Assembly (NCBI GenBank): GCA_024279915.1 | Contig: JAJRRB010000057.1 | Span: 1-64,000, forward strand | Direction of reading: 5' to 3' | Origin: Deltaproteobacteria bacterium | Lineage (GTDB): Bacteria; Desulfobacterota; Desulfuromonadia; Desulfuromonadales; BM103 | DNA length: 64,000 nucleotides | Shown: one piece after another, positions 1,194 through 35,938 of the stretch | How the letters are laid out: every line of letters starts with the position of its first letter | How positions within the stretch are numbered: position 1 is the stretch's first letter | Translations under genes and position numbers: made by a program | The notes under the pieces: generated by a model | What the model saw: only the letters and a program-made list of their open reading frames with translations | Told to the model about the DNA's origin: nothing | The model's database searches: none

Positions 1194-2558
1194 ATGGCCT
1201 CTGAACGTATTCTGATAGTTGATGATGAAGATGGTATGCGCCGTCTGCTGGGTCGTGTCCTGACCAGAGAAGGGTATGATGCCTCTACGGTAGGGAGCGG
1301 TGCAGAAGCGTTGCGTCTGGTGGCCAATGAGCGTTTCGACCTGATCGTTACTGATATCAAAATGCCGGAGATGGATGGTCTGCAGCTGCTCGGGGAGCTG
1401 AAAGAGTTTGAACCATCGCTGCCGATTATTGTCATGACCGCCTATGGGACGATTGAGAACGCTGTGCAGGCCTTGCGTCTTGGAGCTTATGATTACATTA
1501 CCAAGCCTTTTGAAACCGATGAAATTAAGCTGACTGTCGCCAAGGCATTGGAACGGGAGCGTCTGTTGGCCGAGAACCGCTATCTGCATGCTGAGTTGGA
1601 GGGGCGTTACGACTTTTCCGGTATCATAGGTGGCTCGCCAGCGATGCAGCAGGTCTATGAGATGGCTTCGTCGGTTGCGGTCAGCAACGCGAATGTATTG
1701 ATTACCGGCGAGTCGGGAACCGGTAAGGAGTTGATGGCTCGTTCAATTCATTACAGCTCGCCACGCAAGGAAAAACCGTTTGTGGTGCTGAATTGTTCTG
1801 CTCTTTCGGAAAGTGTGCTGGAAAGTGAGCTTTTTGGCCATGAAAAAGGTGCTTTCACTGGTGCTATTGACCTGCGCAAGGGCCGCTTTGAAAGAGCCGA
1901 TCAGGGCACGCTCTTTATTGATGAAGTGGCTGAAATGAGTATGGCTGCACAAGTTAAATTGCTGCGAGTGATTCAAGAGCATGAGTTCGAACGGGTCGGT
2001 GGCAACAAGACAATCAGTGTCGATGTGCGCATTGTTGCTGCCACTAACAAAAAACTGGAAGATCAGGTGAAAGATGGCAAATTTCGGGAAGATCTCTACT
2101 ATCGATTGAACGTTGTCAATATCAATATCCCGCCATTACGCTCCAGACGTGAAGATATCGAGTCTCTGACGCGACATTTTCTGGAAAAATATGCGACTGA
2201 AACCGGCAAGAAGATCACCGATCTGGCTCCTCGCGCTCTCAGTTGCCTGTTGGCTCACGATTGGCCAGGAAACATACGCGAGCTACAGAATGCCATTGAG
2301 CGGGCGGTTGTTCTCTCCAAAGGCAGTGAGTTGACCCCGAGGGATTTCCCGCAAGGTTTACAAGGCGACGACCAGATCTGCCTGCAGGTCCCGGAGAAAG
2401 GCGGCAGCCTTACCGAAATCCTCGAGGATCTCGAACGTCAATTGATACTGCAAACATTGCAACGCGAGGACGGTTCGCAGACCCGTGCTGCCGAAACTCT
2501 GGGGATCAAGCGGACTACGCTACGTTACAAAATGGAAAAGTATCGTATGATTGATTAG
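1194..2558 (+). CDS. NtrC-family sigma-54-dependent response regulator
   Basis: The 454-residue protein has the standard three parts: an N-terminal receiver (about 1-120) with the phospho-acceptor Asp near residue 54 in TDIKMPEMDG, an AAA+ sigma-54 activation domain (about 145-375), and a Fis-type helix-turn-helix at the C-terminus. Walker A reads GESGTGKE and the sigma-54 contact loop GAFTGA is intact, so it should activate sigma-54 RNA polymerase when phosphorylated. A histidine kinase gene follows after about 350 bp and is the likely partner. A strong sigma-54 promoter at 5999-6015 is a plausible target, which is inference. I cannot assign a specific NtrC subfamily. Confidence 0.95.
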   Translation: MASERILIVDDEDGMRRLLGRVLTREGYDASTVGSGAEALRLVANERFDLIVTDIKMPEMDGLQLLGELKEFEPSLPIIVMTAYGTIENAVQALRLGAYDYITKPFETDEIKLTVAKALERERLLAENRYLHAELEGRYDFSGIIGGSPAMQQVYEMASSVAVSNANVLITGESGTGKELMARSIHYSSPRKEKPFVVLNCSALSESVLESELFGHEKGAFTGAIDLRKGRFERADQGTLFIDEVAEMSMAAQVKLLRVIQEHEFERVGGNKTISVDVRIVAATNKKLEDQVKDGKFREDLYYRLNVVNINIPPLRSRREDIESLTRHFLEKYATETGKKITDLAPRALSCLLAHDWPGNIRELQNAIERAVVLSKGSELTPRDFPQGLQGDDQICLQVPEKGGSLTEILEDLERQLILQTLQREDGSQTRAAETLGIKRTTLRYKMEKYRMID

Positions 2559-2910
2559 ACTCTCCATTCGATCATCCCCCGTTCACCACAGTTGATTGAT
2601 TTGCTTGAATATAGTAATATCGTTGGTTTAGCTTTTATTTGATCCGCCATATTGGCTTTTGGATGAGGGTCAATAGAGGGCGGTACGCTTATGTGCATGG
2701 TGCTCTTTTTTGTTTATTGGCCATAGCTTTTAAGCGAAGGTTGATTCAGGAGGATGTTGTGGGGAGAGGAGGGGATAATAGCTTTAGGATCTGAAGCCGT
2801 CTGGGTCGCGTTGTGCGGTTGGACGGTTTTTTTATTTAGCGGCGGCCCCCTGTAAGTGTGTCCCTAGTGAGTGCCCTGCGATCCCATAAAGAGAGGATTG
2901 AGAACCAAGT
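2559..2910. other. 352-bp intergenic region
   Basis: No coding frame with sensible composition is seen here. A weak hairpin with a five-base stem (CCGTC/GACGG) is followed by TTTTTTT near 2830 and could be a terminator for the upstream regulator, but the stem is short. I found no sigma-54 promoter, c-di-GMP riboswitch or repeat that I would defend. Confidence 0.4.
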
Positions 2911-4929
2911 ATGATGACTCCCGAGCTTCATAGCCAGACGTTGCAAAGCCAGCGTTTCGAGGCCTTGTACCACTTGACTCAGATGGATACGTCCGACCTG
3001 ACGGCGATCAAAACCTTTGCTCTTGAGGCCGCAGTTCAGGCGACCCAAAGTCGTATCGGCTACATCTACTTTCTGAATGAGGACGAGACGACCCTTACTC
3101 TACACGCCTGGTCGGCTTCGGTGATGCCCGAGTGTCGTGTCGCTGAACCTGCAAGTGATTACCCGATCGCTCACACCGGTTTGTGGGGCGAGGCTGTAAG
3201 GCAACGCAAACCGATCATCACCAATGATTACAAGGCAGAAAGTCCTTTCAAAAAAGGCCTTCCGAACGGGCATGTCGATCTCCAGCGTCACATGAACCTG
3301 CCGATCTTCGACCAGGGCCGAGTTGTCATGGTCGCCGGGGTTGCCAACAAACAAGATCATTACGATGATGAAGACATTCGCCACCTGACTCTGCTGATGG
3401 AGGGCCTCTGGTCGATTCTGGCCAGAGTCAAGGCGAACGAGTCGTTGCGTGCCAATGAGCTGAGCATGCGCAGTTTTTATGAAGACAGCCCGGCGAATTA
3501 CCAATCGTTAGATAAAGAGGGCAGGTTCAGGGATATCAACCCAGCCTGGGTTGCTACCTTCGGCTACAGCCGGGAAGAGACTATAGGTCGCAAGTTCTCA
3601 GATCTTATGACAGAGGTTTCTCAGGACTTGGTCGTCGATCGTTTCACTGGTTTGAAAAAGCATGGCAAACTCAATGACGCTGACTTCGAAATAATTCACA
3701 AGGACGGCCATACATTGCTTGTCACGCTCAATGGTCGGGTCAGTTACGATACTCAGGGCAAATTCCAGCACACCAACTGTATCCTCACTGATGTAACCGA
3801 GGCACGCAGGGACGAAGCGTTGTTGCGGCAAAGTGAAGAAGCCAACCGGTTGCTCTCGATGCAGTTCCAGTCGCTGCTCGATAGCATCACTGATCGCATT
3901 GTGATGCTTGATCGCAATTTACGCATCGTTTGGACCAATCAGAAAGAGACTCCGTTACGGGAACCCTTCAAAGTCAACCCCATAGGCCATCTCTGTTACG
4001 AAATTCTGCTAGGACAGCCAGAGCCTTGCTCAGATTGCCCTGTGAACAGGGCTCTTGAGTCAGGTCAGATTGAAGAGCTCGAGCGCCTTAATTCCGATGG
4101 CCGAACCTGGTCCATGAGGGCGTTCCCGATTTTCGATGAGCGAGGCGAGGTCGTTAATGTTGTCGAAATCGGCCAGGATATTTCCGACAGTATCAAACTG
4201 AGAGAAGAGATCGGCAGAACGGCGCAACTCGCCTCCATCGGTGAATTGTCAGCCGGAGTCGCTCACGAAATCAATAACCCGATCAATGGGGTGATCAACT
4301 ATGCCCAGCTCATAAAGAACAGTGTCGCACCGGAAACCAGGGAACATGATCTGTCCGAAAGGATCATCAAGGAAGGTGACCGGGTTGCAAGGATCGTCAA
4401 ACAGTTGCTCTTTATTGCGCGTGATGATCGGAGCGATAATTTGCCTGTGAATCTGTGCGATGTTCTGGCCGACACTCTGATGCTGGTCGGCAGCCAGTTC
4501 AGCAATGAGGGGGTCGATCTCGAGGTTAAGCTGGATGAGAACCTGCCGTTGATCAATGGGCATGCGCAGCAGTTGCAGCAGTTGTTCCTCAATCTTCTCA
4601 GCAATGCGCGCTATGCGTTGAATCAGCGCTTTCCGCAAGACAACCCTAATAAACGGCTCGAAATTGAAATTCGTCTTACAGAGAGTGAGCACGGCCCAGA
4701 ACTGTTCGTGCGCTTTTATGACCGGGGCGGCGGCATCCCCGCCGAGTTACTGCAAAAGGTTCTGCAGCCGTTTGTTACCAGTAAACCGTCGAATGAAGGG
4801 ACTGGGCTTGGTTTGAGCATCAGTAACGATATTGTGAAAAAGCATGGCGGCTCTCTGCATATCAACAGCAATGAAGGAGTTGATACGGAGCTCCTGATTC
4901 GCTTTCCGGTTGTAGAGGAGCAGGTTTAG
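2911..4929 (+). CDS. GAF-PAS-PAS sensor histidine kinase
   Basis: The 672-residue protein has no evident membrane segment, so it is probably a cytoplasmic sensor. Domains in order: GAF (about 20-165), PAS (about 175-300), a second PAS containing three clustered cysteines (CSDCP and a preceding C, about 340-380), HisKA and HATPase. The phospho-accepting His is near residue 452 in the H-box VAHEINNP. The N box is NLLSNARYAL, and the G boxes DRGGGIP and GTGLGLS are intact. This HisKA layout is typical of NtrB-like partners of NtrC regulators, fitting the gene just upstream. The cysteines in the second PAS could bind a metal or sense redox, which is speculative. Two adjacent ATG codons could serve as start. 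Confidence 0.93.
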   Translation: MMTPELHSQTLQSQRFEALYHLTQMDTSDLTAIKTFALEAAVQATQSRIGYIYFLNEDETTLTLHAWSASVMPECRVAEPASDYPIAHTGLWGEAVRQRKPIITNDYKAESPFKKGLPNGHVDLQRHMNLPIFDQGRVVMVAGVANKQDHYDDEDIRHLTLLMEGLWSILARVKANESLRANELSMRSFYEDSPANYQSLDKEGRFRDINPAWVATFGYSREETIGRKFSDLMTEVSQDLVVDRFTGLKKHGKLNDADFEIIHKDGHTLLVTLNGRVSYDTQGKFQHTNCILTDVTEARRDEALLRQSEEANRLLSMQFQSLLDSITDRIVMLDRNLRIVWTNQKETPLREPFKVNPIGHLCYEILLGQPEPCSDCPVNRALESGQIEELERLNSDGRTWSMRAFPIFDERGEVVNVVEIGQDISDSIKLREEIGRTAQLASIGELSAGVAHEINNPINGVINYAQLIKNSVAPETREHDLSERIIKEGDRVARIVKQLLFIARDDRSDNLPVNLCDVLADTLMLVGSQFSNEGVDLEVKLDENLPLINGHAQQLQQLFLNLLSNARYALNQRFPQDNPNKRLEIEIRLTESEHGPELFVRFYDRGGGIPAELLQKVLQPFVTSKPSNEGTGLGLSISNDIVKKHGGSLHINSNEGVDTELLIRFPVVEEQV

Positions 4930-7317: not shown

Positions 7318-8067
7318 TTGAATAAACTGCGCTTGATCTTCTTGTTGTTTGTTGTGATGTCCTTGCTTGCCGGGTGCGACAGCGATGAGTCCATATCGGC
7401 GAAGACGTCGTCCGGGAAGGGTCATCTGCAAGGGCAGGTCACCATGCCACTGGAAGATGTTCGGCTCTATGTCTACAAGTCAGGTATGGATCTTTATGGT
7501 CCTGCTTATGCGATTTCGACAGCGACGGGTAACGATGGCAAATTCGACATTGAACTTCCTGATGGCGATTACGTGGTCGTGGCTAGAAAGCGCGCTAAAG
7601 GTGAGGAGACTGGCCCGGTCGTGGCCGGTGACAACCGCAGTGAATTCATAAAGGTCAGCGTGCTGGGTGGCGTCGTTGATATGCATATTTCAGCCCCGGT
7701 GAAGATTGGCGACCAACGCAACTTTACTGGTGATATCGAAGAATCAACCACCGGTCTTGCCGGTCAGATCCTTGATAGCGACGGTCAGCCTGTCGTCGCG
7801 GCCAGAGTGCACGTCTACGATCATGTGCAGATGTCAGAAAGGCCGAAATTTGTTTCTGAGAAAACTGGTCCGGACGGGCGTTATTTGATCTACCTGCCCG
7901 CTGGCGGCACCTACTACCTGGCTGCCCGGGATAACTTTGGTGGTCCTCCCAAGCTTGGTGATCTCTACGGTCGTTACGATAAAGGCACAATCGAGCCCTC
8001 TGCTGTTGTGGTTACAGAAGGACAGGTGCTGAAACCGATTGATATAACAGTGACCAAGGTCTGGTAA
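7318..8067 (+). CDS. Lipoprotein with carboxypeptidase-regulatory-like domains
   Basis: The 249-residue protein begins at TTG, supported by AAGGAG seven bases upstream. A lipobox LAGC near residue 19 marks it as a lipoprotein. The rest is two tandem beta-sandwich repeats of the carboxypeptidase-regulatory-like type, recognisable from G-x-V-T, DGKFDIELPDGDYVVVAR and DGRYLIYLPAGGTYYLAAR. Such domains are structural or binding modules with no catalytic residues. It is the second gene of the redox cluster and ends two bases before the HEAT-repeat gene. A role as scaffold or binding partner in the periplasm is inferred. Confidence 0.8.
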   Translation: MNKLRLIFLLFVVMSLLAGCDSDESISAKTSSGKGHLQGQVTMPLEDVRLYVYKSGMDLYGPAYAISTATGNDGKFDIELPDGDYVVVARKRAKGEETGPVVAGDNRSEFIKVSVLGGVVDMHISAPVKIGDQRNFTGDIEESTTGLAGQILDSDGQPVVAARVHVYDHVQMSERPKFVSEKTGPDGRYLIYLPAGGTYYLAARDNFGGPPKLGDLYGRYDKGTIEPSAVVVTEGQVLKPIDITVTKVW

Positions 8068-10511: not shown

Positions 10512-10978
10512 ATGGAATTGTTCTGACTCTATTGCTGACTTTGCTGGTCAGTGTGCCAGCACAGGCTTGCTTTGGACCGAAACTATTTGTCGGGGCAGGG
10601 CAGAGCGTGCAAGATGAAGCTCTTTTCGCCCTGGTTACTCTCTATGTGCAGGAAAAGACTGGCGTTGGAAGTATCCGCATAGAGGTCGAATCAGGGCAGG
10701 ACCCACTGGCCTTGTTCGCAGCGGAAAAGGCTGATCTGATTTTTGTAGCGTCAGATTCTCTTGAGAATACGGTTCTGCAAATAGCAGGTATGCCACTGCT
10801 GGTGACAGGCCCGCGTCCGCTTGAGGAGCTACAGTTTACCACCGTGCTGCCAGCCATCCGAAAGCTTAATCGGTTGTTGAAAAAAGAAGATGTTGAGCTG
10901 ATTGTCAGTCAGATTGAAGCTGGTGAGAGTGCCATGGCCTCCGCCCGTAAATTCCTCATGGAACTTCGATGGATATGA
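10493..10978 (+). CDS. Small exported protein, solute-binding-like
   Basis: The 161-residue protein has an N-terminal signal peptide ending in PAQA followed by a cysteine. Cleavage by signal peptidase I after AQA is likelier than lipidation because the lipobox is poor. The mature part loosely resembles one lobe of a periplasmic solute-binding protein, with the VASDSLENTVLQIAG and GPRPLEEL stretches. It is shorter than a complete binding protein. I do not recognise a specific family. Overlaps on both sides (19 bases upstream, 4 downstream) argue for translational coupling within the cluster. Confidence 0.6.
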   Translation: MAIRTLNGIVLTLLLTLLVSVPAQACFGPKLFVGAGQSVQDEALFALVTLYVQEKTGVGSIRIEVESGQDPLALFAAEKADLIFVASDSLENTVLQIAGMPLLVTGPRPLEELQFTTVLPAIRKLNRLLKKEDVELIVSQIEAGESAMASARKFLMELRWI

Positions 10979-11784
10979 AGTTAAGCTGCTGGAAAATAAC
11001 TTGTTTTGTGGTTGCCATTGTTGCGGCTGTGACTTCCTGTCCTTCTGCGTCGTATGCCGTTGATATGGTGCAGGAGTACTCAGGAGCATTTTCTGGCGAC
11101 TTGGTTTGGCAAGAGTCTGTGACTATGACAGCTGATGTGCTGATTCTTAAAGGGGCTACTTTGACAATCCGTGCAGGTACTCAAATCAGTGTTGTGCCCG
11201 CAGAAGGAACCAAGATCGATCCTGAGTATTTGTCACCACTGACCGAGCTTCTTGTCAGAGGAAAACTCGACATTCAAGGGACGCCTGAGAAGCCAGTGCG
11301 TTTTATCATCATAGAGACCAGCGAAACCGAAGAGATTGCCTGGGCTGGTATTACTCTTGATAACGCTGTTGAGAGTTATATCCAGAGGGTTGAACTGGAA
11401 CGTGCCGACACTGCAATCCGTTGCGTCACATCGTCTCCAGAGATAATAGAAGCCAAGATCGCCAACTGTCGCTATGGCATTGTTGCCCAGCAACAGAGCC
11501 ACCCGAAAATTCTCGGTAATATTCTGGTTGACGGGGAGGGCGGCATCTTCTCTTTGAGTGGCTCCAATCCGTATCTGAAGAATAACCAGATCATAAACCA
11601 TGATGAAGAGGCCGTGTTTGTCGACGCCAGCAGCCGTCCCTGGTTGGATCGTAACACGATCAAAGGTAACGCTATCGGTCTTGCCCTTTATCCCCGTGAC
11701 TTGCCCTATGACTTGACTGCGGTCACAGACAACCAGGAAAATGTCCGATGGCTGGGTCGCCAGGGACAGGCAGACGTCAAATGA
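10975..11784 (+). CDS. NosD-like periplasmic beta-helix protein (first copy)
   Basis: The roughly 269-residue protein carries a signal peptide (hydrophobic stretch then ASYAVDM) and is exported. The body has the DLVWQESVTMTADVLILKG and LTIRAGTQI pattern of a right-handed parallel beta-helix, as in NosD/CASH-domain proteins. The start at 10975 gives an ATGA overlap with the preceding stop, as in several other junctions here; an ATG at 10969 is the alternative. In nitrous-oxide reductase clusters NosD acts in metal-centre assembly, but no nosZ is present in this window. Its function here is therefore open. Confidence 0.75.
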   Translation: MKLSCWKITCFVVAIVAAVTSCPSASYAVDMVQEYSGAFSGDLVWQESVTMTADVLILKGATLTIRAGTQISVVPAEGTKIDPEYLSPLTELLVRGKLDIQGTPEKPVRFIIIETSETEEIAWAGITLDNAVESYIQRVELERADTAIRCVTSSPEIIEAKIANCRYGIVAQQQSHPKILGNILVDGEGGIFSLSGSNPYLKNNQIINHDEEAVFVDASSRPWLDRNTIKGNAIGLALYPRDLPYDLTAVTDNQENVRWLGRQGQADVK

Positions 11785-12884
11785 TGCGCTTATGGAGTCT
11801 CTTTTTGTTGCTATTGGTCGCACCGGTATCGGCGATTGCTGATGAGGTACTGGTCTATCAAGGCGAACAAACCATCTTTGAGGATACCGTCTGGAATGGT
11901 GATATCCTGATAGACGGAATCTTGACGGTAGCGGCAGGGGTAACGCTGGAAATCCGACCTGGTAGCCAGATCCGCTTCACTCGTTTTGATAGCAATGGTG
12001 ACGGCATTGGCGAACATGAAATTTTTTCTCAAGGGATCATTCGTGTCATCGGCACCGTTGACGAACCTGTCCTCTTCACTTCGGCCGAAGCAGAACCACG
12101 CCCTGGTGACTGGGGGGCGATCAATATGATGGTGAGCGAAGAGGAAAACCTTCTGGAGAACTGTATCATCGAATATGCTTATCGTGGATTTCATGCTCAT
12201 TACTCACAGGCAAGGTTGCTGAATAGTACTTTCAGAAACAATATGCGCGGCGCGCAATTCCAGGAATCACAGGTAGTTATCGACGGCTGTCGTTTTCTTG
12301 ACAACCGTAACGGTATGCAATTTCGTGACAGTAAAGTCACCTTGAGAGGCTCGACGATCTCGGGAAGTCACTGGGGTCTCCGTTGTGTTTACAGCGACCT
12401 GAAAATGAGCGGTTGTACGATTGAAAACAATCTGGTTAACGGTGCGAACATCCGTGATGGCAAGATCGAAGCACGAGGCAACCGGATCGTTGGCAATCGT
12501 CGCGGACTTTATCTGCAGCGCAGTGAAGCGCAGATTGTTGGCAACGATCTTTCTGCAAATAGCGAGCACGGCATTTTTCTTGAAGAGTCAACAGTTGAGG
12601 TGGTCGATAACCGTCTTGCCAATAACGGTCGCGCTGGTGTGCGCTGGTTAAACAGCAAGGGTCGGTTTGCTCGTAACATGATCGCTGATAACGGTGTCTA
12701 TGGCTTCATTAACGATGGCACCACTGCTGTTGAAGCCCGTAACAACTGGTGGGGATCAGCAAAGTCCACTGATATCGTTGCTGCAATACGTGACGGCAGC
12801 GATCGTTCCGGGCTCGGACTTGTTGATAGCCGGTATCCATTGATGCAGCCTTTACCATTTAACCTTTTGTCGGAGACTCCATGA
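11781..12884 (+). CDS. NosD-like periplasmic beta-helix protein (second copy)
   Basis: The ATG at 11781 overlaps the previous stop as ATGA and begins a clean signal peptide (MMRLWSLFLLLLVAPVSA), so it is preferred to the upstream ATG at 11748. The 367-residue protein is built of many short beta-helix turns, with recurrent patterns such as NxxGxxF, IENNLVNGANIRDG and NRIVGNRRGLYLQRSEA typical of NosD/parallel beta-helix repeats. It is related in layout to the preceding gene, suggesting duplication. The gene also overlaps the PhnD-like gene by four bases. It is a periplasmic binding or assembly factor of unknown substrate. Confidence 0.8.
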   Translation: MMRLWSLFLLLLVAPVSAIADEVLVYQGEQTIFEDTVWNGDILIDGILTVAAGVTLEIRPGSQIRFTRFDSNGDGIGEHEIFSQGIIRVIGTVDEPVLFTSAEAEPRPGDWGAINMMVSEEENLLENCIIEYAYRGFHAHYSQARLLNSTFRNNMRGAQFQESQVVIDGCRFLDNRNGMQFRDSKVTLRGSTISGSHWGLRCVYSDLKMSGCTIENNLVNGANIRDGKIEARGNRIVGNRRGLYLQRSEAQIVGNDLSANSEHGIFLEESTVEVVDNRLANNGRAGVRWLNSKGRFARNMIADNGVYGFINDGTTAVEARNNWWGSAKSTDIVAAIRDGSDRSGLGLVDSRYPLMQPLPFNLLSETP

Positions 12885-13774
12885 AGTATCTGATCCTGAT
12901 TTTCCTCCTCTGCGGAGTTTTATTAAGTGGTTGCGAACAGCCACTCGAAGGCCCTCCGATTCGCATTGGCTATATGAATTGCAACAGCGAAACGGAAACC
13001 ATGCAACGTTTCCGGCCACTGACAGCCTACCTGTCGCAAGAGCTGGGGCGTCCGTTCGAAGCGGTGCCGGTTGATACTCAAGATTTTGAGTCGCGTTTTG
13101 CCGCTGGAGAGTTCACATTCACTCATGGTAACAGCCTGCTCTACATCATTATGCACGAGAATCAGGGCTTGCGACTGCTCGCAACCGAAAAGCGTGGTCA
13201 GTTCGGCTCCCGTACTGCTGGCTCCATCATTGTTCGTAAGGATAGCCCGATCAAGACGATTAAAGATCTACAGGGCAAGCGCATGCTCTTTGGCCCACAA
13301 TTGGCTCCGACCGGTTACCTCGCACAGTATGATCTGATGTTGCAGGCAGGCTTCGACCCAGAAGTTGGTCTTGATTATTACGCGATCCCGCGCGGCGCGT
13401 ATAAACATGAAAAAGTCATCTACGGTGTTTATTTTGGCGAGTACGATGTCGCGGCAGCACCAACTCTGGATCTTGAGCTGATGACACGTGAAGGACGTAT
13501 CTCAGCTGATGATTTTCGGATCCTGGCCCAGAGTGAAATTATACCTTACTGCACATTTGGTGCGGATAAAGATGCTGATGCAGAATTAGTGGAGAAATTC
13601 CGTAAAGCTTTGGTTGAATTGACCCCGGAAACAACGGTCAAAATAGATGGCGAGACAATCAAAGTGCTTGACTCGGCGTGGATTGATGGCTTTGAAACTC
13701 TTCTCGATGAGGATTACGACCCCATCCGGGCCATGGCAAAGCGCGTCAATATGCCGCCTTACCAGGAGTTTTAA
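12881..13774 (+). CDS. PhnD-like solute-binding lipoprotein
   Basis: The 297-residue protein has a lipobox LSGC near residue 18 and then a PhnD-type (phosphate/phosphite/phosphonate ABC) solute-binding fold: IRIGYMNCNSETE, FRPLTAYLSQELG, HGNSLLY, SIIVRKDSPIKTIKDLQGKR and FGPQLAPTGYL. No ABC permease or ATPase gene is nearby. It may therefore deliver a ligand to a non-ABC system or act as a sensor, as other PhnD-like orphans do. The ligand cannot be told from sequence. It overlaps the beta-helix gene by ATGA and is followed by the TPR gene after four bases. Confidence 0.85.
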   Translation: MKYLILIFLLCGVLLSGCEQPLEGPPIRIGYMNCNSETETMQRFRPLTAYLSQELGRPFEAVPVDTQDFESRFAAGEFTFTHGNSLLYIIMHENQGLRLLATEKRGQFGSRTAGSIIVRKDSPIKTIKDLQGKRMLFGPQLAPTGYLAQYDLMLQAGFDPEVGLDYYAIPRGAYKHEKVIYGVYFGEYDVAAAPTLDLELMTREGRISADDFRILAQSEIIPYCTFGADKDADAELVEKFRKALVELTPETTVKIDGETIKVLDSAWIDGFETLLDEDYDPIRAMAKRVNMPPYQEF

Positions 13775-13778
13775 TTTG

Positions 13779-14321
13779 ATGCTGCGTGATCGATTCGATC
13801 AGTTGATGATCGTCGCTCTGGTGGGCGTTCTGATCTTTACTGCCGTACTGATGGCTGGTGCTGGGCCGCGTGAAGATAATCGTGATGCTCAGGCCGCAAA
13901 ACGTCAATTAGAACGTGAAATATTGCATCAAGCTCGTGTGGCTTATATTAAACGGCATTACACTCCCGTTATCACCTTGCGCGATAGCGGCGCCTTGCCT
14001 GATGCCCTCCTTAAATTGGAAGAGTTGAGCCGGACTTTACCCGGTGAAGCCCATAATGATTTGTTAAGTGGCGATATTATGTTGCGCATGGGCCAGTTTG
14101 ACCGAGCCATAAGCAAGCTTGCCTCTGCAGTAAAACACAACGCTGATTATGTTGATTCCGCAAGTCCCTTGAGTCAACGGCCATTGATTGAAGCCGCTGT
14201 TTCAGAAAGTTTACCGCTGATTCGTGATCGACTACGTGTACAGCCGGAAAACCGCACTCTCGCGCAAGTATTGAAAGATGGTTACTATTTGCAGAGCCGT
14301 CTTGCCGGAGGTTGCGAATGA
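13779..14321 (+). CDS. Membrane-anchored TPR-like protein
   Basis: The ATG at 13779, five bases after the previous stop, gives a 180-residue protein. The longer frame upstream lies inside the PhnD-like gene. An N-terminal transmembrane anchor (LMIVALVGVLIFTAVLMAG) is followed by helical, TPR-like sequence (ALLKLEELSRTLPGEAHNDLLSGDIMLRMGQFDRAISKL). It probably faces the periplasm and mediates protein contacts. It overlaps the YedE-like gene by ATGA. The TPR assignment rests on pattern only, and no catalytic motif is present. Confidence 0.65.
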   Translation: MLRDRFDQLMIVALVGVLIFTAVLMAGAGPREDNRDAQAAKRQLEREILHQARVAYIKRHYTPVITLRDSGALPDALLKLEELSRTLPGEAHNDLLSGDIMLRMGQFDRAISKLASAVKHNADYVDSASPLSQRPLIEAAVSESLPLIRDRLRVQPENRTLAQVLKDGYYLQSRLAGGCE

Positions 14322-15388
14322 GCTCAACCTTGCGTGACCGTCATTTCTGGGTCGTTGTGGCAGCGGGTGCCGGGCTTGGTATTCTCGGGGTGCTGCTTGC
14401 TGTTTGGGGAAATCCTCAAAACAGTGGGATTTGCGTTTCCTACTTTATTGAAAACTCATCCGGAGCGCTCGGTTTGCATGATAACGAGCGCATGCAATAT
14501 CTGCGGCCGGAGTTGATTGGTTTCGTGCTTGGTTCAATTTTGTGTGCGTCACTTTTTCGTGAATTCCGTTCGCGTGGGGGCAGTGCACCACTCGCACGGC
14601 TGGTCTCTGGTATCTTTCTGATCGTTGGCAGTGCGGTTTTTATCGGTTGTCCGATTAAGCTTTTTCTCAGGCTGACGGCCGGGGACATCACCTCTGTCGC
14701 TGGTCTTGTTGGCTTGGTAGCTGGTGTCTGGATCGGGTTGCAGGGGTTGGCCAGGGGCATTGACCTGGGTCGAGCTGAAGACGAACGTGGTGCCACCGGC
14801 ATGTTGGTTCCTGCTGGATTTGTCCTGTTGTTGGTCTTTCTGCTTGCTCGTCCGACTTTTATTCTCTTTTCCGATCGCGGCAGCGCAGCTCAACACGCTC
14901 CTTTGCTGATATCGTTGGCCGTTGGCCTAACCCTTGGCGCACTTGCTCAACGCAGCCGTTTCTGTATTACCGGCAGCGTCCGCGATGGCATGTTGATGGG
15001 TAGCCGCAGCCCGCTGTTCTGGGGCTTGTTAGCTTTTCTGGCCGGTGCTTTTGTAACCAATCTGGCGATGGGACGTTTTAACTTCGGCCTCTATGGACAG
15101 CCGGGCGCGCACCTTGAATATCTCTGGAGTTTTCTGGGCATGCTTTTGGTCGGGTGGCTTTCTGTCCTGATCGGTGGTTGTCCTTTCCGTCAGTTGATTA
15201 AAGCCGGGGAGGGTGATGCCGATGCCGGTCTGGCTGTCATCGGTATGTTACTCGGTGGTGGTCTGGTTCAGTCCTGGGGGATTGCAGCTACAGCAGCCGG
15301 AGTCTCTATGTCCGGTAAAATCGCCGTTCTTGCCGGGTTGGCTTTTGTGCTTGTCATGAGTCTGCTCTTTCGTGATCGAACTGCTTAG
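14318..15388 (+). CDS. YedE-like putative selenium transporter
   Basis: The start at 14318 has GGAGG six bases upstream and an ATGA overlap with the preceding gene. The 356-residue polytopic protein belongs to the YeeE/YedE family. It closely follows the YedE-related selenium-metabolism subgroup: GNPQNSGICVSYFIENSSG, LRPELIGFVLGS, the conserved cysteine of VFIGCPIKL, LAQRSRFCITGSVRD and IGGCPFRQLIKAGEGD. YeeE/YedE relatives move thiosulfate-type sulfur across the membrane through cysteines; the selenium subgroup is assigned by genomic association with selenium enzymes. Its position between the redox cluster and the radical SAM module suggests it supplies Se or S to that module, which is inference. 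Confidence 0.85.
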   Translation: MSSTLRDRHFWVVVAAGAGLGILGVLLAVWGNPQNSGICVSYFIENSSGALGLHDNERMQYLRPELIGFVLGSILCASLFREFRSRGGSAPLARLVSGIFLIVGSAVFIGCPIKLFLRLTAGDITSVAGLVGLVAGVWIGLQGLARGIDLGRAEDERGATGMLVPAGFVLLLVFLLARPTFILFSDRGSAAQHAPLLISLAVGLTLGALAQRSRFCITGSVRDGMLMGSRSPLFWGLLAFLAGAFVTNLAMGRFNFGLYGQPGAHLEYLWSFLGMLLVGWLSVLIGGCPFRQLIKAGEGDADAGLAVIGMLLGGGLVQSWGIAATAAGVSMSGKIAVLAGLAFVLVMSLLFRDRTA

Positions 15389-15634: not shown

Positions 15635-15949
15635 GTGAATAATCCTCTACGTAGCCCCGATATTGTCTGGCGAGTTGAGAAACGTCGTCAGGCTGAAGTG
15701 CTCAAGGCTCTGGAAGCTGGTGAAGATGTTGACGACAGTGGCACGGTGATCCTGCTGCAATCAGGTATGATGCATCAGCTTAATCTGGTTGGTGGCTTGA
15801 TCTGGCAACAGTGTGATGGGCAACAGACGCTTGCAGCGATTGCTGCAGAGCTGGCCAGAGAGTTTTCAGTGGAGCAGGAGGAAGTTGAGTCAGATGTTGA
15901 CGAGTTTGTTACTGATTTAAAAGAGAGAGGTTGGTTGATCAATGGCTGA
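15635..15949 (+). CDS. PqqD-like peptide chaperone (GeoRSP-type)
   Basis: The 104-residue protein starts at GTG with AAGGA eight bases upstream. It has the PqqD fold pattern, including GTVILLQSGMMHQLNLVGGLIWQQCDG followed by a helical region ending DLKERGWL. PqqD-like domains bind leader peptides and present them to radical SAM enzymes. The gene overlaps the radical SAM gene by eight bases, so the two are translationally coupled. The set PqqD, radical SAM/SPASM and SPASM protein matches the predicted GeoRSP system of Geobacter relatives, from recall of the TIGRFAM descriptions. The YxxP motif of the small peptide downstream is the type of sequence such domains recognise. Confidence 0.85.
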   Translation: MNNPLRSPDIVWRVEKRRQAEVLKALEAGEDVDDSGTVILLQSGMMHQLNLVGGLIWQQCDGQQTLAAIAAELAREFSVEQEEVESDVDEFVTDLKERGWLING

Positions 15950-16943
15950 AGTCACGGAAATGTTTTCTGCACCTTTGACATTTAATTGGACACTTTCGTA
16001 TCGCTGCAACTTTGTTTGTGAGCATTGTTACAGCCGCGATGAAGAGTGCCCGGAACTGGCGATACAGGACATCAAACGGGTGGTCGATATCCTGGTCGAA
16101 CAACAGGTTCCATTTATCAACTTTGGTGGTGGTGAACCGTTGATCCGCAAGGACCTGTATGAGGTCGCTGAATACGCTTCCAAGCGTGGTCTGAATGTTT
16201 CGATGAATACTAACGGCTGGCTGCTTGATGAGGTCGCTGCTCAGAGACTCAAAGACGTCGGCTTTAAAAGTGTCGGCATCAGTATCGATAGTTCGGAAGC
16301 GTCGGTTCATGACGCATTTCGCAATATGCCAGGATCTTATGAGAAGGCCGTGCGTGGGCTTGACGCCCTGCGTAAAGTTGGGTTGAAGAGCACCATGAGT
16401 TCGGTGATCTCGCGCATCAATTACCAGGCCTTTCGTGAATTACTAGATCTGGCTCGCGAACACGGGGTTAATCAAGTTTATCTGCATAACTTTAAATGCA
16501 GCGGTCGTGGTCTTAAAAATCGCGAAGAACTCGATCTGACTCCTGCGGAATGGCAGGCATTCTATCTTGAAGCTCTTGCTGTCAAGCACCAGACCGATGA
16601 TCTGACAATCTCCTTTGACGACCCGGTGATTGCCTCCCTGCCTGAATATCAGGAGAAAACCATGGTCAAGGGGAGTAGCTGCGGTAAGCTTTCACTACAT
16701 TTACGACCGAATGGCGATATCACCCCCTGTGGTTTCATCCCAGTCGTTGTCGGTAACATATTGAAAGAAGATTTTGAAAAGATCTGGTTTGACTCGCCAG
16801 TTCTCAAAGCAATGCGTGCTAAGGAGGCCACTGGCAAATGTGCCGGATGTTCAGCCTTTGACGATTGTCAGGGTGGTTGTACTGCACGCGCCTTTGCGAC
16901 CACCGGTGACTTTAATCAACCAGACCCGCATTGTTGGAAATAG
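15942..16943 (+). CDS. Radical SAM/SPASM peptide-modifying enzyme (GeoRSP-type)
   Basis: The 333-residue protein has the radical SAM cluster motif CX3CX2C at C22, C26 and C29 (CNFVCEHC), the GGGEP motif for SAM binding, and a C-terminal SPASM domain. Visible SPASM residues include CG...CGF near 250-265 and CAGCSAFDDCQGGC followed by a final Cys near 331, enough for auxiliary 4Fe-4S clusters. SPASM enzymes of this size mostly modify ribosomal peptides by making C-C, C-S or similar bonds. The likely substrate is the 18-residue peptide encoded 83 bases downstream. The exact chemistry is not predictable from the sequence. Confidence 0.9.
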   Translation: MAEVTEMFSAPLTFNWTLSYRCNFVCEHCYSRDEECPELAIQDIKRVVDILVEQQVPFINFGGGEPLIRKDLYEVAEYASKRGLNVSMNTNGWLLDEVAAQRLKDVGFKSVGISIDSSEASVHDAFRNMPGSYEKAVRGLDALRKVGLKSTMSSVISRINYQAFRELLDLAREHGVNQVYLHNFKCSGRGLKNREELDLTPAEWQAFYLEALAVKHQTDDLTISFDDPVIASLPEYQEKTMVKGSSCGKLSLHLRPNGDITPCGFIPVVVGNILKEDFEKIWFDSPVLKAMRAKEATGKCAGCSAFDDCQGGCTARAFATTGDFNQPDPHCWK

Positions 16944-17025
16944 AGGGTCGGAGTAACTTTACGTCTTTGCGTTAGATGCTTTTTGTTTTCGTGAGCACCA
17001 ACACTAACTTGAAAGGAGAACAACT

Positions 17026-17082
17026 ATGAAAAAGTACATCAAACCTGCTGTTGTTGGTTCCAGTAACGTTCACCCTTGCTGA
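17026..17082 (+). CDS. Candidate radical SAM-modified precursor peptide
   Basis: A tiny ORF with a strong AAGGAG (seven to eight bases upstream) encodes MKKYIKPAVVGSSNVHPC, placed directly after the radical SAM gene. The N-terminal half has the YxxP motif (Y4-P7) used by PqqD-like/RRE domains to bind leaders. The short tail SSNVHPC would be the core, with a terminal Cys as a likely modification site. The stop is TGA right after this Cys; if read as selenocysteine the product would be Cys-Sec followed by RLAT and then TAG. I do not see a convincing SECIS hairpin, so stop is the default reading. Precursor assignment rests on size, motif, ribosome-binding site and context. Confidence 0.7.
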   Translation: MKKYIKPAVVGSSNVHPC

Positions 17083-17092
17083 AGACTCGCTA

Positions 17093-17262
17093 CCTAGTTT
17101 TCGTCCGGAAACGGCCCTTTTCCGCAATCTCTGCGTCAATCTGCACATTTGATTGTGCGGCGTAAAGAACTACGCCTCCGCTCAAATGCTTGATTTTCTT
17201 GACCTTGCGAAAAATTGCTCGTTTCCAAATCGAAAACTGCACTTGTGCCCATCTGGGTTTCT
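17093..17262 (-). repeat. Structured intergenic element with stacked hairpins
   Basis: Several perfect short stems follow one another: CGGAAA/TTTCCG (17115-17135), GCACA/TGTGC around 17147, and GGCGTA/TACGCC with loop AAGAAC around 17160, the last extended by GCGG/CCGC. Read on the minus strand, a short open frame within it has protein-like composition (GGVVLYAAQSNVQIDAEIA), so a dispersed repeat or small RNA are both possible. It sits between the precursor peptide and the SPASM partner gene. I did not see a second copy in this window. Confidence 0.45.
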
Positions 17263-17284
17263 GGATGGACATTAGCTAACGGCA

Positions 17285-18256
17285 TTGAACTTACGGTGTG
17301 ATTTTGATATGGGTCTAGACCTGTTAGATACCCCGGTTCGCTTGACCTGGGATTTTCCTGATGATGCGACCTGTCAGGCAAGTACTTGTCTGCCTGCTAT
17401 TGCTGACTCTATTGCCGATGGCGGTGTGTTCTTTGTCACATTGCAGGGGAGTCCTTTGTTGCACCCTGCTATCGAAGAGGTGCTGGAACTCCTGGGCGGC
17501 GGTTGTCAACTCCTGATTTCCTGCCGGGGTAGCGCAAAGGAGCTGGAGCGTCTTAAGCAACTGCCACTTGCAGGATGTCAAATACTGCTGGATGTTTCAG
17601 ACTTTATTGACAATAATCATGGCGTTGCTACGGACAGACTTCATGCCGTTGTTGTAGCGCTTCGTCAACTGGCGGTAAAGCCTGTTGTCACTTTAACACC
17701 ATTGCGTAACAACCTCAGTAATATCCCTGAGTTACTGCGTTTCTGCAGTGAACATCAGATCGCCAAATTAAAGTTGCCAAACGCCCATATCGGTGATAGC
17801 TTTCAAGGATATTTGACTGCGGATCTGCCGCGTTGGCAAGACCTCGAAGACTTTCGCAAGATATGGCTGGATTTTATGGAAAATCCTTGCCAACTACCAA
17901 CGCTGGAGATTCATGATCTTTTCCTTTGGGAGATCATGACCCCCGGGCAACAACAGAGTCGTGGTGAATATGGTGGTTGCCAAGCTGGCAACAGTCTCAG
18001 TCATGTTGATATCAAGGGTGTTGTTCATCCTTGTGCAGCATGGCCACAAGCCCTGGGCAAACTGCCTGACCAGTCATTAGAAGATATCTGGTCTGGGAGT
18101 GAACGTATGGTGGTGCGCGAGCAGATTTCTAAGGTTGCAGCGGGCTGCCATGGCTGTCGTGATCTTGATATCTGCTTTGGTGGTTGCCGTGGCCTGGCTT
18201 TTCACCTGAATCGGTCTGGAGAAGAGCGAGATCTCATGTGCTCTGGCCCACGTTGA
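17285..18256 (+). CDS. SPASM-domain partner with degenerate radical SAM domain (GeoRSP-type)
   Basis: The roughly 323-residue protein starts at TTG (ATG at 17309 is an alternative; no clear ribosome-binding site decides). The N-terminal half looks like a radical SAM barrel, but the cluster motif is lost: only TCQASTC stands where CX3CX2C is expected, and GGEP has become QGSP. The C-terminal SPASM domain is intact, with HPCAAWPQALGKL, CHGCRDLDICFGGC and a last Cys near residue 320. This matches the non-catalytic second SPASM protein of the GeoRSP set. It may act as an accessory subunit for substrate binding or electron transfer to the true radical SAM enzyme. Confidence 0.82.
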   Translation: MNLRCDFDMGLDLLDTPVRLTWDFPDDATCQASTCLPAIADSIADGGVFFVTLQGSPLLHPAIEEVLELLGGGCQLLISCRGSAKELERLKQLPLAGCQILLDVSDFIDNNHGVATDRLHAVVVALRQLAVKPVVTLTPLRNNLSNIPELLRFCSEHQIAKLKLPNAHIGDSFQGYLTADLPRWQDLEDFRKIWLDFMENPCQLPTLEIHDLFLWEIMTPGQQQSRGEYGGCQAGNSLSHVDIKGVVHPCAAWPQALGKLPDQSLEDIWSGSERMVVREQISKVAAGCHGCRDLDICFGGCRGLAFHLNRSGEERDLMCSGPR

Positions 18257-18323
18257 CAAAACCTATAGCAGCCTGTTGGACAACCAATGAACTTGCTGCA
18301 AAGATCTGGTCCACTCTGAATTG

Positions 18324-19472
18324 ATGCCTATCTATCTTGACAATGCTGCCACATCTTTTCCGAAGCCGTCACAAGTCATCGAAGCGGTTGAGGGAACATT
18401 GCGGCAAAACGCTGCCAACCCTGGTCGTGGCGGGCACCAACTTTCCCTTCAAGCCGGTCGTCTTGTCATGGAGTGTCGCGAAACTGTGGCTCGCTTCTTC
18501 GGCATCAGCGATGAGACCCGCATTGCTTTCACCGCAAACGCAACCGAGGCTATTAATCTTGGTCTGTTTGGTGTCCTGCAGCCCGGCGACCGGGTTGTCA
18601 CTACATCGATGGAACATAATGCCGTGGTTCGTCCACTACGGGAGTTAAGCGACCGGGGCGTTGAAGTTGTTCGCGTCATGGCCGATTCTATCGGCTTTGT
18701 TAGCCCTGATTCGATACGTCAAGCTTGTCTTTCCGGCACTCGTCTATTGATTATGAACCATTGCTCCAATGTGACCGGAACTCTCCAGGCGATTGACGAG
18801 ATTGGCCCCTGGTGTCGTCAGCAAGGGATCCTATTTATGGTTGATGCCGCGCAGAGCGCCGGTGTCTTTCCGATTCATGCCGAAGATATGGCGATCGATC
18901 TGCTCGCAGTTCCTGGACACAAGTCACTGCTTGGTCCTACCGGAACAGGTTTTCTCTATGTTCGCAAGGGACTGGAGCTACGCCCGCTACTTTATGGCGG
19001 AACGGGTAACTTCTCTCAATCTGCAATCCAGCCGACTGAGATGCCGGAACGGCTGGAAAGCGGGACACTTAACACCATCGGCCTGGCGGGTCTCAAAGCT
19101 GGTGTGGAGTTTATCGAAAGTGTTGGTCTTGACTCGGTTCGTGCCCATGAACAAAAGCTTCTTAGTCAGTTGATAGAAGGTTTAAGTGACGTTGCTGGCC
19201 TGTCACTTAATGGCCCGCTCGATTCTATACGGCATGGTGGTGCGCTTTCATTCAATGTTAGAAATATGGATCCATCAATGCTGGGCTTTCGCTTGGACCA
19301 CGAATATGGTATCTGTTGTCGCGTTGGTTTGCACTGTGCTCCTGAAGCACATGACACTATAGGCACGCTCCCAGAGGGGACCGTTCGTCTCAGCCCCGGT
19401 TACTTTAATAGTGCTGATGATATTGAAAAAACACTGATAGCGATTCGTGCGATCATTGCGTCAGAGCGTTGA
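18324..19472 (+). CDS. Cysteine desulfurase (class V aminotransferase)
   Basis: The 382-residue protein starts MPIYLDNAATSFPKPS. The PLP-binding Lys is near residue 200 in PGHKSLLGPTGTG, and the catalytic Cys near 338 in RVGLHCAPEAH, followed by GTVRLSPGYFN. This is the cysteine desulfurase subgroup often found beside selenium and molybdenum-hydroxylase genes (TIGR01977 type, from recall). It removes sulfur from Cys, or selenium from Sec, as a protein-bound persulfide or selenide. Its place behind the SPASM genes suggests it supplies S or Se to the peptide or to the clusters of the maturases. A TTG three bases upstream is an alternative start. Confidence 0.92.
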   Translation: MPIYLDNAATSFPKPSQVIEAVEGTLRQNAANPGRGGHQLSLQAGRLVMECRETVARFFGISDETRIAFTANATEAINLGLFGVLQPGDRVVTTSMEHNAVVRPLRELSDRGVEVVRVMADSIGFVSPDSIRQACLSGTRLLIMNHCSNVTGTLQAIDEIGPWCRQQGILFMVDAAQSAGVFPIHAEDMAIDLLAVPGHKSLLGPTGTGFLYVRKGLELRPLLYGGTGNFSQSAIQPTEMPERLESGTLNTIGLAGLKAGVEFIESVGLDSVRAHEQKLLSQLIEGLSDVAGLSLNGPLDSIRHGGALSFNVRNMDPSMLGFRLDHEYGICCRVGLHCAPEAHDTIGTLPEGTVRLSPGYFNSADDIEKTLIAIRAIIASER

Positions 19473-35586: not shown

Positions 35587-35938
35587 GGGGGTGCAAAGGT
35601 TTCGACGGGGATTGGAAGCGCTGGTTGCATGCCGGAGTGGGCTGGCTCCGATAAAAAGCCCAACACATACAAACGCCGATACTGACGTTCGTTACGCATT
35701 AGCAGCTTAATTGCTGTTACGTCTCTTGATTCATCGCCCATGTGGGGCAAGTGACGTTAATTATAGTGGGATAGTTTCAGGGAGTGTCTGTGGCCCTGTT
35801 GCGAAACTTTAGCAGACTCGCCTGTAATATATCCTGTTCGTGGGAGATCTTGCCGGTTAATCAAAACACGAACTATGCATGTAGACGCTAGATGTGAAAG
35901 ATTTTCGGACGCGGGTTCGATTCCCGCCACCTCCACCA
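35587..35938 (+). ncRNA. ssrA: Transfer-messenger RNA
   Basis: The 5' end GGGGGTGCAAAGGTTTCGAC and the 3' end GGTTCGATTCCCGCC...CCACCA form the tRNA-like domain, with the seven-base acceptor stem pairing GGGGGTG to CACCTCC. The tag reading frame around 35675-35710 ends in ADTDVRYALAA before TAA, the usual Ala-Ala degradation tag. The upstream neighbour smpB encodes its partner. The 3' end and following terminator are duplicated at 37087-37139, a sign of an integrated element. Confidence 0.97.

Follow-up and report, generated by a model that had tools for sequence, protein, structure and literature searches.

Introduction

PqqD-like proteins bind the leaders of peptides that are modified by radical S-adenosylmethionine (SAM) enzymes. 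The described systems closest to the locus reported here are GeoRSP (TIGR04302/TIGR04303/TIGR04304), mycofactocin, pyrroloquinoline quinone (PQQ; PqqA/D/E), and the SbtM thio(seleno)oxazole system (TIGR04082). In mycofactocin biosynthesis, the C-terminal Tyr of MftA, which MftB brings to the enzyme, is oxidatively decarboxylated by MftC (PMC8728441). Here we analyze a 64,000-nucleotide stretch of DNA from a Deltaproteobacteria bacterium (contig JAJRRB010000057.1, positions 1 to 64,000; hereafter, the window), in which an 18-codon open reading frame (ORF) lies among genes for a GeoRSP-like set of enzymes. We propose, with a probability of about 0.68, that this ORF encodes the precursor of a ribosomally synthesized and post-translationally modified peptide (RiPP), the product of which would be a cofactor- or ligand-like part for large, mostly exported proteins, chiefly multiheme c-type cytochromes with an end domain that we call A2.

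Results and Discussion

Relation to described systems

The first-pass annotation of the window had proposed a GeoRSP-like module, and profile searches bear this out. GeoRSP models are the best matches for the PqqD-like protein (15635–15949), the radical SAM/SPASM enzyme (15942–16943), and a SPASM partner (17309–18256), all encoded on the + strand, and these three kinds of maturase-side genes stand in the same order as in GeoRSP. Only the enzyme, which carries CNFVCEHC, exceeds its family cut-off (TIGR04303, 443.6 bits versus 400); the PqqD-like protein (TIGR04302, 84.7 versus 100; PF05402 above cut-off) and the SPASM partner (TIGR04304, 114.3 versus 300) fall below theirs. We therefore regard the enzyme as a GeoRSP member and the set as GeoRSP-like. 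A further difference from GeoRSP is that no NCBIfam precursor model was matched by three 20-residue variants of the peptide. The gene order that had been read from the window, with the tiny ORF between the enzyme and partner genes and a cysteine desulfurase family protein last (18324–19472, + strand; TIGR01977, 461.6 bits versus a cut-off of 377), was verified by sequence reading and hidden Markov model matches. The partner had been called degenerate, and it indeed lacks the CxxxCxxC radical SAM motif.

The locus resembles mycofactocin in pairing a PqqD-like chaperone with a radical SAM/SPASM enzyme that, as proposed here, would act on the peptide C-terminus. In contrast to mycofactocin, this C-terminus is HPC rather than VY, the TIGR03962 score is 200.1 against a cut-off of 265, the precursor is present in multiple copies beside cytochrome genes, and MftD, MftE, and MftF were not recognized among the window proteins scanned. 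With PQQ the locus shares a PqqD-PqqE type pair, and solved PqqE matches enzyme residues 7–331; however, the TIGR02109 score (124.3) lies below the cut-off of 381.35, the neighbouring genes differ, and the Glu/Tyr pair of the PQQ precursor core has no counterpart in the HPC peptide. SbtM, too, is a radical SAM enzyme that matures a peptide, and its family name refers to selenium, but only the SPASM partner matches it, weakly (34.5 versus a cut-off of 350), and the Cys of the present peptide is terminal.

The next-best NCBIfam models for the enzyme are AhbD, MftC, and NirJ. Among solved structures, PqqE, SuiB (residues 9–316), and SkfB (residues 11–302) match over most of its chain, and BlsE scores best over part of it. 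A Foldseek search with the predicted enzyme model returned BlsE first and SuiB second and placed PqqE and SkfB within the top 15, and the models of both enzyme and SPASM partner resemble SuiB, SkfB, PqqE, and anSME; these models are of moderate quality (mean predicted local distance difference test scores of 73.8 and 68.5, respectively) and were used for fold only. Matches to SuiB and SkfB would fit a secreted signal or antimicrobial RiPP of the sactipeptide or streptide kind. We nevertheless consider such a role very unlikely: the peptide core is strongly conserved over 12 family labels, several copies are tied to genes for large proteins, and no immunity gene or ATP-binding cassette exporter was recognized among the window proteins scanned.

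A conserved gene for a probable precursor peptide

The ORF at 17026–17082 (+ strand), which encodes MKKYIKPAVVGSSNVHPC and stops at TGA, is a genuine gene. The ribosome-binding site ascribed to it is present as AAAGGAG at 17012–17018, 7 nucleotides ahead of the ATG. If the ORF is real, relatives should carry a short ORF with YxxP and a terminal HPC between the same two genes, as the first-pass annotation had anticipated. Of the 41 radical SAM loci like this one, 37 have a near-identical ORF directly behind the enzyme gene; the 41 include the window itself and six pairs that each appear to be a single genome present in two collections. Its products are 18–20 residues long and take the form MKKYxKPxVVGSSNVHPC, close variants of it, or a 20-residue form ending in SSVHPC. 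In the other four loci (L009, L014, L018, and L019), the SPASM gene follows the enzyme gene at once with no ORF between them, and the genomes concerned (G025, G016, G045, and G056) carry the peptide elsewhere.

The sequence is conserved as protein. Across 22 aligned variants (the L045 copy starts with a codon other than ATG, entered as M), positions M1, Y4, K6, P7, H16, P17, and C18 are invariant; distant copies retain YxxP and HPC, though the Lys may be lost (YVAP). Among 26 distinct 18-codon DNA versions, the 245 non-majority bases fall at codon positions 1, 2, and 3 in numbers of 37, 33, and 175. Relative to the consensus, 154 of 201 codon changes (77%) are silent, versus a mean of 18% and a maximum of 26% in 1000 random placements. 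Purifying selection therefore acts on the precursor. A conserved short precursor linked to a maturase, by which radical SAM RiPPs are recognized, is thus present at this locus.

The 36 core genes examined end with TGA in 26 cases, TAA in eight, and TAG in two, and this mixture marks the terminal Cys as the true end of the protein. Emphasis had earlier been placed on a Cys just before TGA; the terminal Cys stands, whereas the TGA is uninformative, since TAA and TAG are also used. We considered selenocysteine at the TGA and rejected it, because relatives terminate with TAA or TAG and an in-frame TGA is not conserved.

Peptide and enzyme across the phylum

We scored 345 genomes of the phylum for the peptide (profile A1, E 1e-5) and the enzyme (E 1e-90), taking the best candidates in each genome (up to 26 for A1, 6 for TIGR04303, 15 for A2, and 16 for TIGR01904). 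Peptide and enzyme occurred together in 24 genomes, the peptide alone in two, the enzyme alone in two, and neither in 317; six of the 26 enzymes counted at this E value fall below the TIGR04303 cut-off, at 380–399 bits. This pattern strongly supports the earlier suggestion of a short peptide modified by a radical SAM enzyme. Contrasts between close relatives point the same way, both within one genus (positive in G042; negative in G022 and G054) and within family f22 (positive in G082 and G209; negative in G155, G257, and G300). G209, enzyme-only at the cut-off, does encode a divergent peptide within its cassette (L153). The other enzyme-only genome, G232, carries A2; no peptide was found in it at E 1e-5, and a motif search of the contig with its enzyme found none either. 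Peptide without enzyme was seen in G255 (81% complete) and, in the related set described below, in G010 (82% complete). The genome sets were drawn from one phylum; locus L045 is labelled Nitrospirae, L046 Deltaproteobacteria, and L047 simply "bacterium."

Copies behind genes for large proteins

Beyond what the first-pass annotation had described, the precursor is multi-copy. In a set of 58 related genomes, profile A1 (E ≤ 0.001) matched 82 places in 31 genomes, with one to five per genome; the remaining 27 genomes had no match better than E 0.047. The match at that value, in G017 (L135), was rejected, as the motif is absent and the locus holds no cassette gene. Thirty of the 31 peptide-bearing relatives also have the enzyme (27 over the cut-off, three as fragments), and the 31st is G010.

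Twenty-six of the 82 copies lie within 600 bases behind an enzyme gene and 56 lie elsewhere. Of these outlying copies, 29 directly follow the gene of a multiheme c-type cytochrome: 22 lie no more than 400 bases past the gene of an A2-bearing cytochrome, and seven are behind other multiheme cytochromes, five of which end in an F5/8 type C domain. A further 15 closely follow the gene of an FG-GAP protein and six that of an HD protein. Six have no assigned neighbour class (G010, at a contig edge, G035:C42, G037:C136, G041:C169, G041:C295, and G033:C1:801650). A2 and FG-GAP neighbours were assigned from nearby profile matches, and F5/8, other cytochrome, and HD neighbours by the upstream ORFs; Pfam and NCBIfam scans were run on ten of the partner proteins, and the others were classed by motif. 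A motif-based listing of copies omits three of the 56 places (G045:C3:826, G056:C2:1463, and G050:C1:997905) and includes one below the profile cut (L128). The regions examined number 58 in the relatives, chosen mostly around copies but in some cases around the enzyme, and 36 from the phylum sample. Among the cytochrome ORFs read upstream of copies, lengths reach 2668 residues and CxxCH motifs number up to 34.

The outlying copies have the features expected of a last cistron. Partnered copies start 14–114 bases after the partner's stop codon (219 in L113), a Shine-Dalgarno-like stretch precedes 93 of 99 peptide genes (core copies included), and a perfect stem of at least 7 lies within 90 bases downstream of 68 of the 99, versus 3 of 99 after one shuffle. 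Such terminator-like stems would also fit a regulatory short ORF or 3′ RNA element that is no substrate of the enzyme. This is the least probable of the alternatives we weighed, because the copies sit at 3′ ends rather than as leaders, conservation is at the level of protein and not of DNA, and the peptide tracks the maturase. Placement as last cistron behind cytochrome and other partner genes instead suggests that the product is made for those proteins, and the additional copies, with their neighbours, point to a cofactor-like role.

The phylum sample extends these findings. The three highest enzyme scores (615–622 bits) belong to G082, G120, and G340, where eight of 13 copies directly follow a CxKCHxPH cytochrome gene; in G340 and G120 (loci L145 and L150), the cytochrome and its peptide lie beside YedE within the cassette locus. 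In other families, the gene ahead of the peptide often encodes a giant immunoglobulin (Ig)-like protein with a lipoyl-like end, by our own reading of the sequence, and in G078, G255, G278, and G298 an A2 cytochrome gene abuts that of the Ig-like protein. The preceding gene encodes a propeller-like protein, judged by eye, in G116 and G152, and several copies of the phylum sample have no clear partner.

A product made by enzymes like those of mycofactocin and PQQ might instead be a diffusible redox cofactor of that kind, cut from the HPC end and shared by unrelated proteins, with adjacency to cytochromes reflecting shared regulation only. The likeness of the enzyme and PqqD-like chaperone to their mycofactocin and PQQ counterparts, the conserved C-terminus, and the unrelated folds of the partners are consistent with this idea. 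We consider it rather unlikely, however, since several copies per genome stand right behind particular genes, no dehydrogenase family was found among the ten partner proteins scanned, and no mycofactocin-type peptidase, oxidase, or glycosyltransferase was recognized among the window proteins scanned, the rest of the genome not having been searched for them.

Other details of the copies were recorded. In L155 (G301), the peptide gene, at 7631 on the minus strand, lies ahead of rather than behind an FG-GAP-like gene, and there is no matching radical SAM enzyme. ORFs that we read as REP-type transposase-like stand just behind a peptide copy in L081 (7335–7802) and L117 (about 286–1276), and they are a possible route by which copies spread. 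The copies linked to HD proteins (L082, L095, L105, L106, L109, and L114) are all from the genus of the window; in at least two (L082 and L095), what we read as a BI-1-like membrane gene lies next to them.

The A2 domain

Fifteen aligned C-terminal ends of partner proteins define A2 as HxFSCSKCHNPHASRLPxLMITNCLDTxHNTWD...SAQNCHR...GWNxVTPW. Between the Cys of TNC and that of NCHR there are 24–60 residues in 20 partners, and we speculate that TNC...NCHR could be a long-spaced heme motif. In all 15 members Pfam and NCBIfam detect only the CxxCH portion, and no solved-structure relative of the domain was found at E up to 1. The presence of c-type motifs and, by eye, of signal-like starts suggests that the partner cytochromes are exported.

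A2 is restricted to genomes that carry the peptide system. With a profile built from 15 partner proteins of 11 enzyme- or peptide-bearing genomes, A2 was found in 27 of the 58 relatives, namely 26 of the 30 with the enzyme plus G010, which has only the peptide; it was found in none of the 27 relatives lacking both enzyme and peptide. In the phylum sample it occurred in 22 of 345 genomes, all of them among the 28 that have enzyme or peptide, and in none of the 317 that lack both. These 28 genomes span 12 family labels and the 22 with A2 span 11. As a control, another cytochrome domain (TIGR01904) was present in 25 of the 28 enzyme-or-peptide genomes and in 11 of the other 317. Among the TIGR01904-positive genomes, A2 was found in 22 of those 25 versus none of the 11 others. 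Thus, the link to A2 does not simply reflect genomes rich in cytochromes.

Proposed role

In the mechanism we favor, the YxKP leader would be bound by the PqqD-like protein, and the peptide would thereby be handed to the radical SAM/SPASM enzyme for alteration of its C-terminal (V)HPC. Help would come from the SPASM partner and from the cysteine desulfurase, the latter as a source of sulfur or selenium. The chemistry may be a PqqE/MftC-type reaction on the C-terminal Cys, and oxidative decarboxylation or a cross-link is our guess. Rather than an antibiotic, the product would be a conserved cofactor-like or ligand-like part, a RiPP in the manner of PQQ or mycofactocin, made for giant multiheme c-type cytochromes with the A2 end and for other large, mostly exported proteins. 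Three features favor a cofactor or ligand over an antibiotic: the conservation of the HPC end, the copies behind genes for large proteins, and the confinement of A2 to these genomes. Together they suggest an undescribed, peptide-derived part of the electron-transfer machinery.

A more specific form of this proposal, which we hold tentatively, is that the modified HPC peptide serves as a prosthetic ligand or tether, docked on or covalently joined to the A2 domain of giant extracellular cytochromes. The peptide would perhaps give His/Cys ligands or a non-heme redox site, and the NosD/PhnD/YedE-type cassette would deliver it in the periplasm. No RiPP-derived component of extracellular electron transfer is known to us, and such a ligand or tether would be the first. 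Extracellular electron transfer has so far been studied as hemes and protein nanowires; if our proposal is correct, a peptide made by a radical SAM enzyme and tied to one giant cytochrome family would add a component to electron transfer, its extracellular use here being an assumption. GeoRSP-type maturases would also gain a substrate and a likely client.

Several observations weigh against a role as cofactor or ligand for these partners. The product, its modification, and its interaction with them are all deduced from sequence. The Fisher values for co-occurrence, which go down to about 1e-32, were computed ignoring phylogeny, and a genome that is 96% complete (G301) has the peptide but no TIGR04303-type enzyme (best E 1.8e-21). 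Because the A2 profile was built from such genomes, 11 of the 27 A2-positive relatives and four of the 22 A2-positive phylum genomes were bound to be positive, which does not hold for the remaining 16 and 18; the independent part of the A2 result is its absence elsewhere. A2 is missing from six of the 28 enzyme-or-peptide genomes and from four of the 30 enzyme-bearing relatives, and given the six, the cytochrome cannot be the sole client. A peptide gene follows at only 22 of 71 A2 places and at 15 of 26 FG-GAP places, so that a single copy may suffice for several clients or the genes may not have to be adjacent. FG-GAP relatives are found in 23 of the 30 enzyme-bearing relatives and also in G022 and G054, which lack the enzyme. 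The partner folds differ among themselves, and the HD protein looks cytosolic. Finally, no peptidase or exporter was recognized among the window proteins scanned.

We found no link between GeoRSP and cytochromes in the literature searched, and no description of the peptide/cassette/cytochrome system in the open-access literature, including PMC9312934 and PMC4289311. That search covered open-access rather than subscription papers, and the absence of a description is therefore weak evidence.

The surrounding cassette

The genes upstream of the maturases are a second addition to the first-pass annotation. All genes of the cassette lie on the + strand, beginning with two for NosD-like right-handed beta-helix proteins (10969–11784, from the domain scan, and 11748–12884, from the domain scan and cassette comparison). 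These are followed by genes for a PhnD-like periplasmic binding protein (12881–13774; PF12974), a protein ending in SRLAGGCE (13779–14321), and a YedE-type putative selenium transporter (14312–15388), after which come the PqqD-like protein, the enzyme, the ORF, the SPASM partner, and the desulfurase. The SRLAGGCE protein, the start of which is our own reading, has no Pfam or NCBIfam match and appears by eye to be membrane-anchored. YedE belongs to TIGR04112 (408.8 bits versus 200) and has no solved relative at E up to 0.01.

The order NosD-like, PhnD-like, SRLAGGCE protein, YedE, PqqD-like, enzyme, SPASM, and desulfurase is shared by 13 of the 17 loci that were compared (L038, L039, L041, L042, L044, L129–L134, L136, and L137; L135 is not an enzyme locus). 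Loci L045–L047 keep the NosD-like protein, YedE, the PqqD-like protein, and the enzyme, with the PhnD-like protein in L046 and L047; no separate SPASM or desulfurase match was found within the stretch examined. YedE is over its cut-off in 31 of the 58 relatives. Of the 27 loci in which the enzyme passes its cut-off, 26 have YedE next to it; in the 27th (G008), the contig ends there.

The association with YedE, the adjacent desulfurase, and the single conserved Cys raise the idea of a peptide loaded with selenium or sulfur, in which the terminal Cys would carry or become a chalcogen group by way of the desulfurase and the imported element, the peptide serving as a carrier or ligand. We think this improbable. 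The desulfurase scores below the cut-off of the selenocysteine lyase SclA (346.6 versus 525), no separate SPASM partner or desulfurase was found in the stretch examined of L045–L047, and the TAA and TAG stops of relatives exclude TGA as selenocysteine. Moreover, selD is over cut-off in 54 of the 58 relatives and does not track the cassette; we had tried its profile as a selenium test and rejected it as non-discriminating.

Genomes without the cassette hold, in two places (G047:C96 and G024:C1), another YedE type that scores higher (about 480 bits) and adjoins selD, so that the cassette YedE looks like a separate subgroup. The SRLAGGCE tail is almost invariant in distant relatives as well (L009, L018, L019, L141, L145, L150, and L153), and its Cys-Glu end may be functional. 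The cassettes of G120 and G082 carry extra genes with OpuAC, ResB, NicO, or FmdE domains; in L150, OpuAC-like, ResB-like, and NicO/DsbD-like genes occupy 2169–4559 inside the cassette, hinting at periplasmic delivery or cytochrome maturation. Elsewhere in the window, an ordinary transfer-messenger RNA (tmRNA) gene lies at 35587–35938 and was the sole match of an Rfam scan at the gathering threshold.

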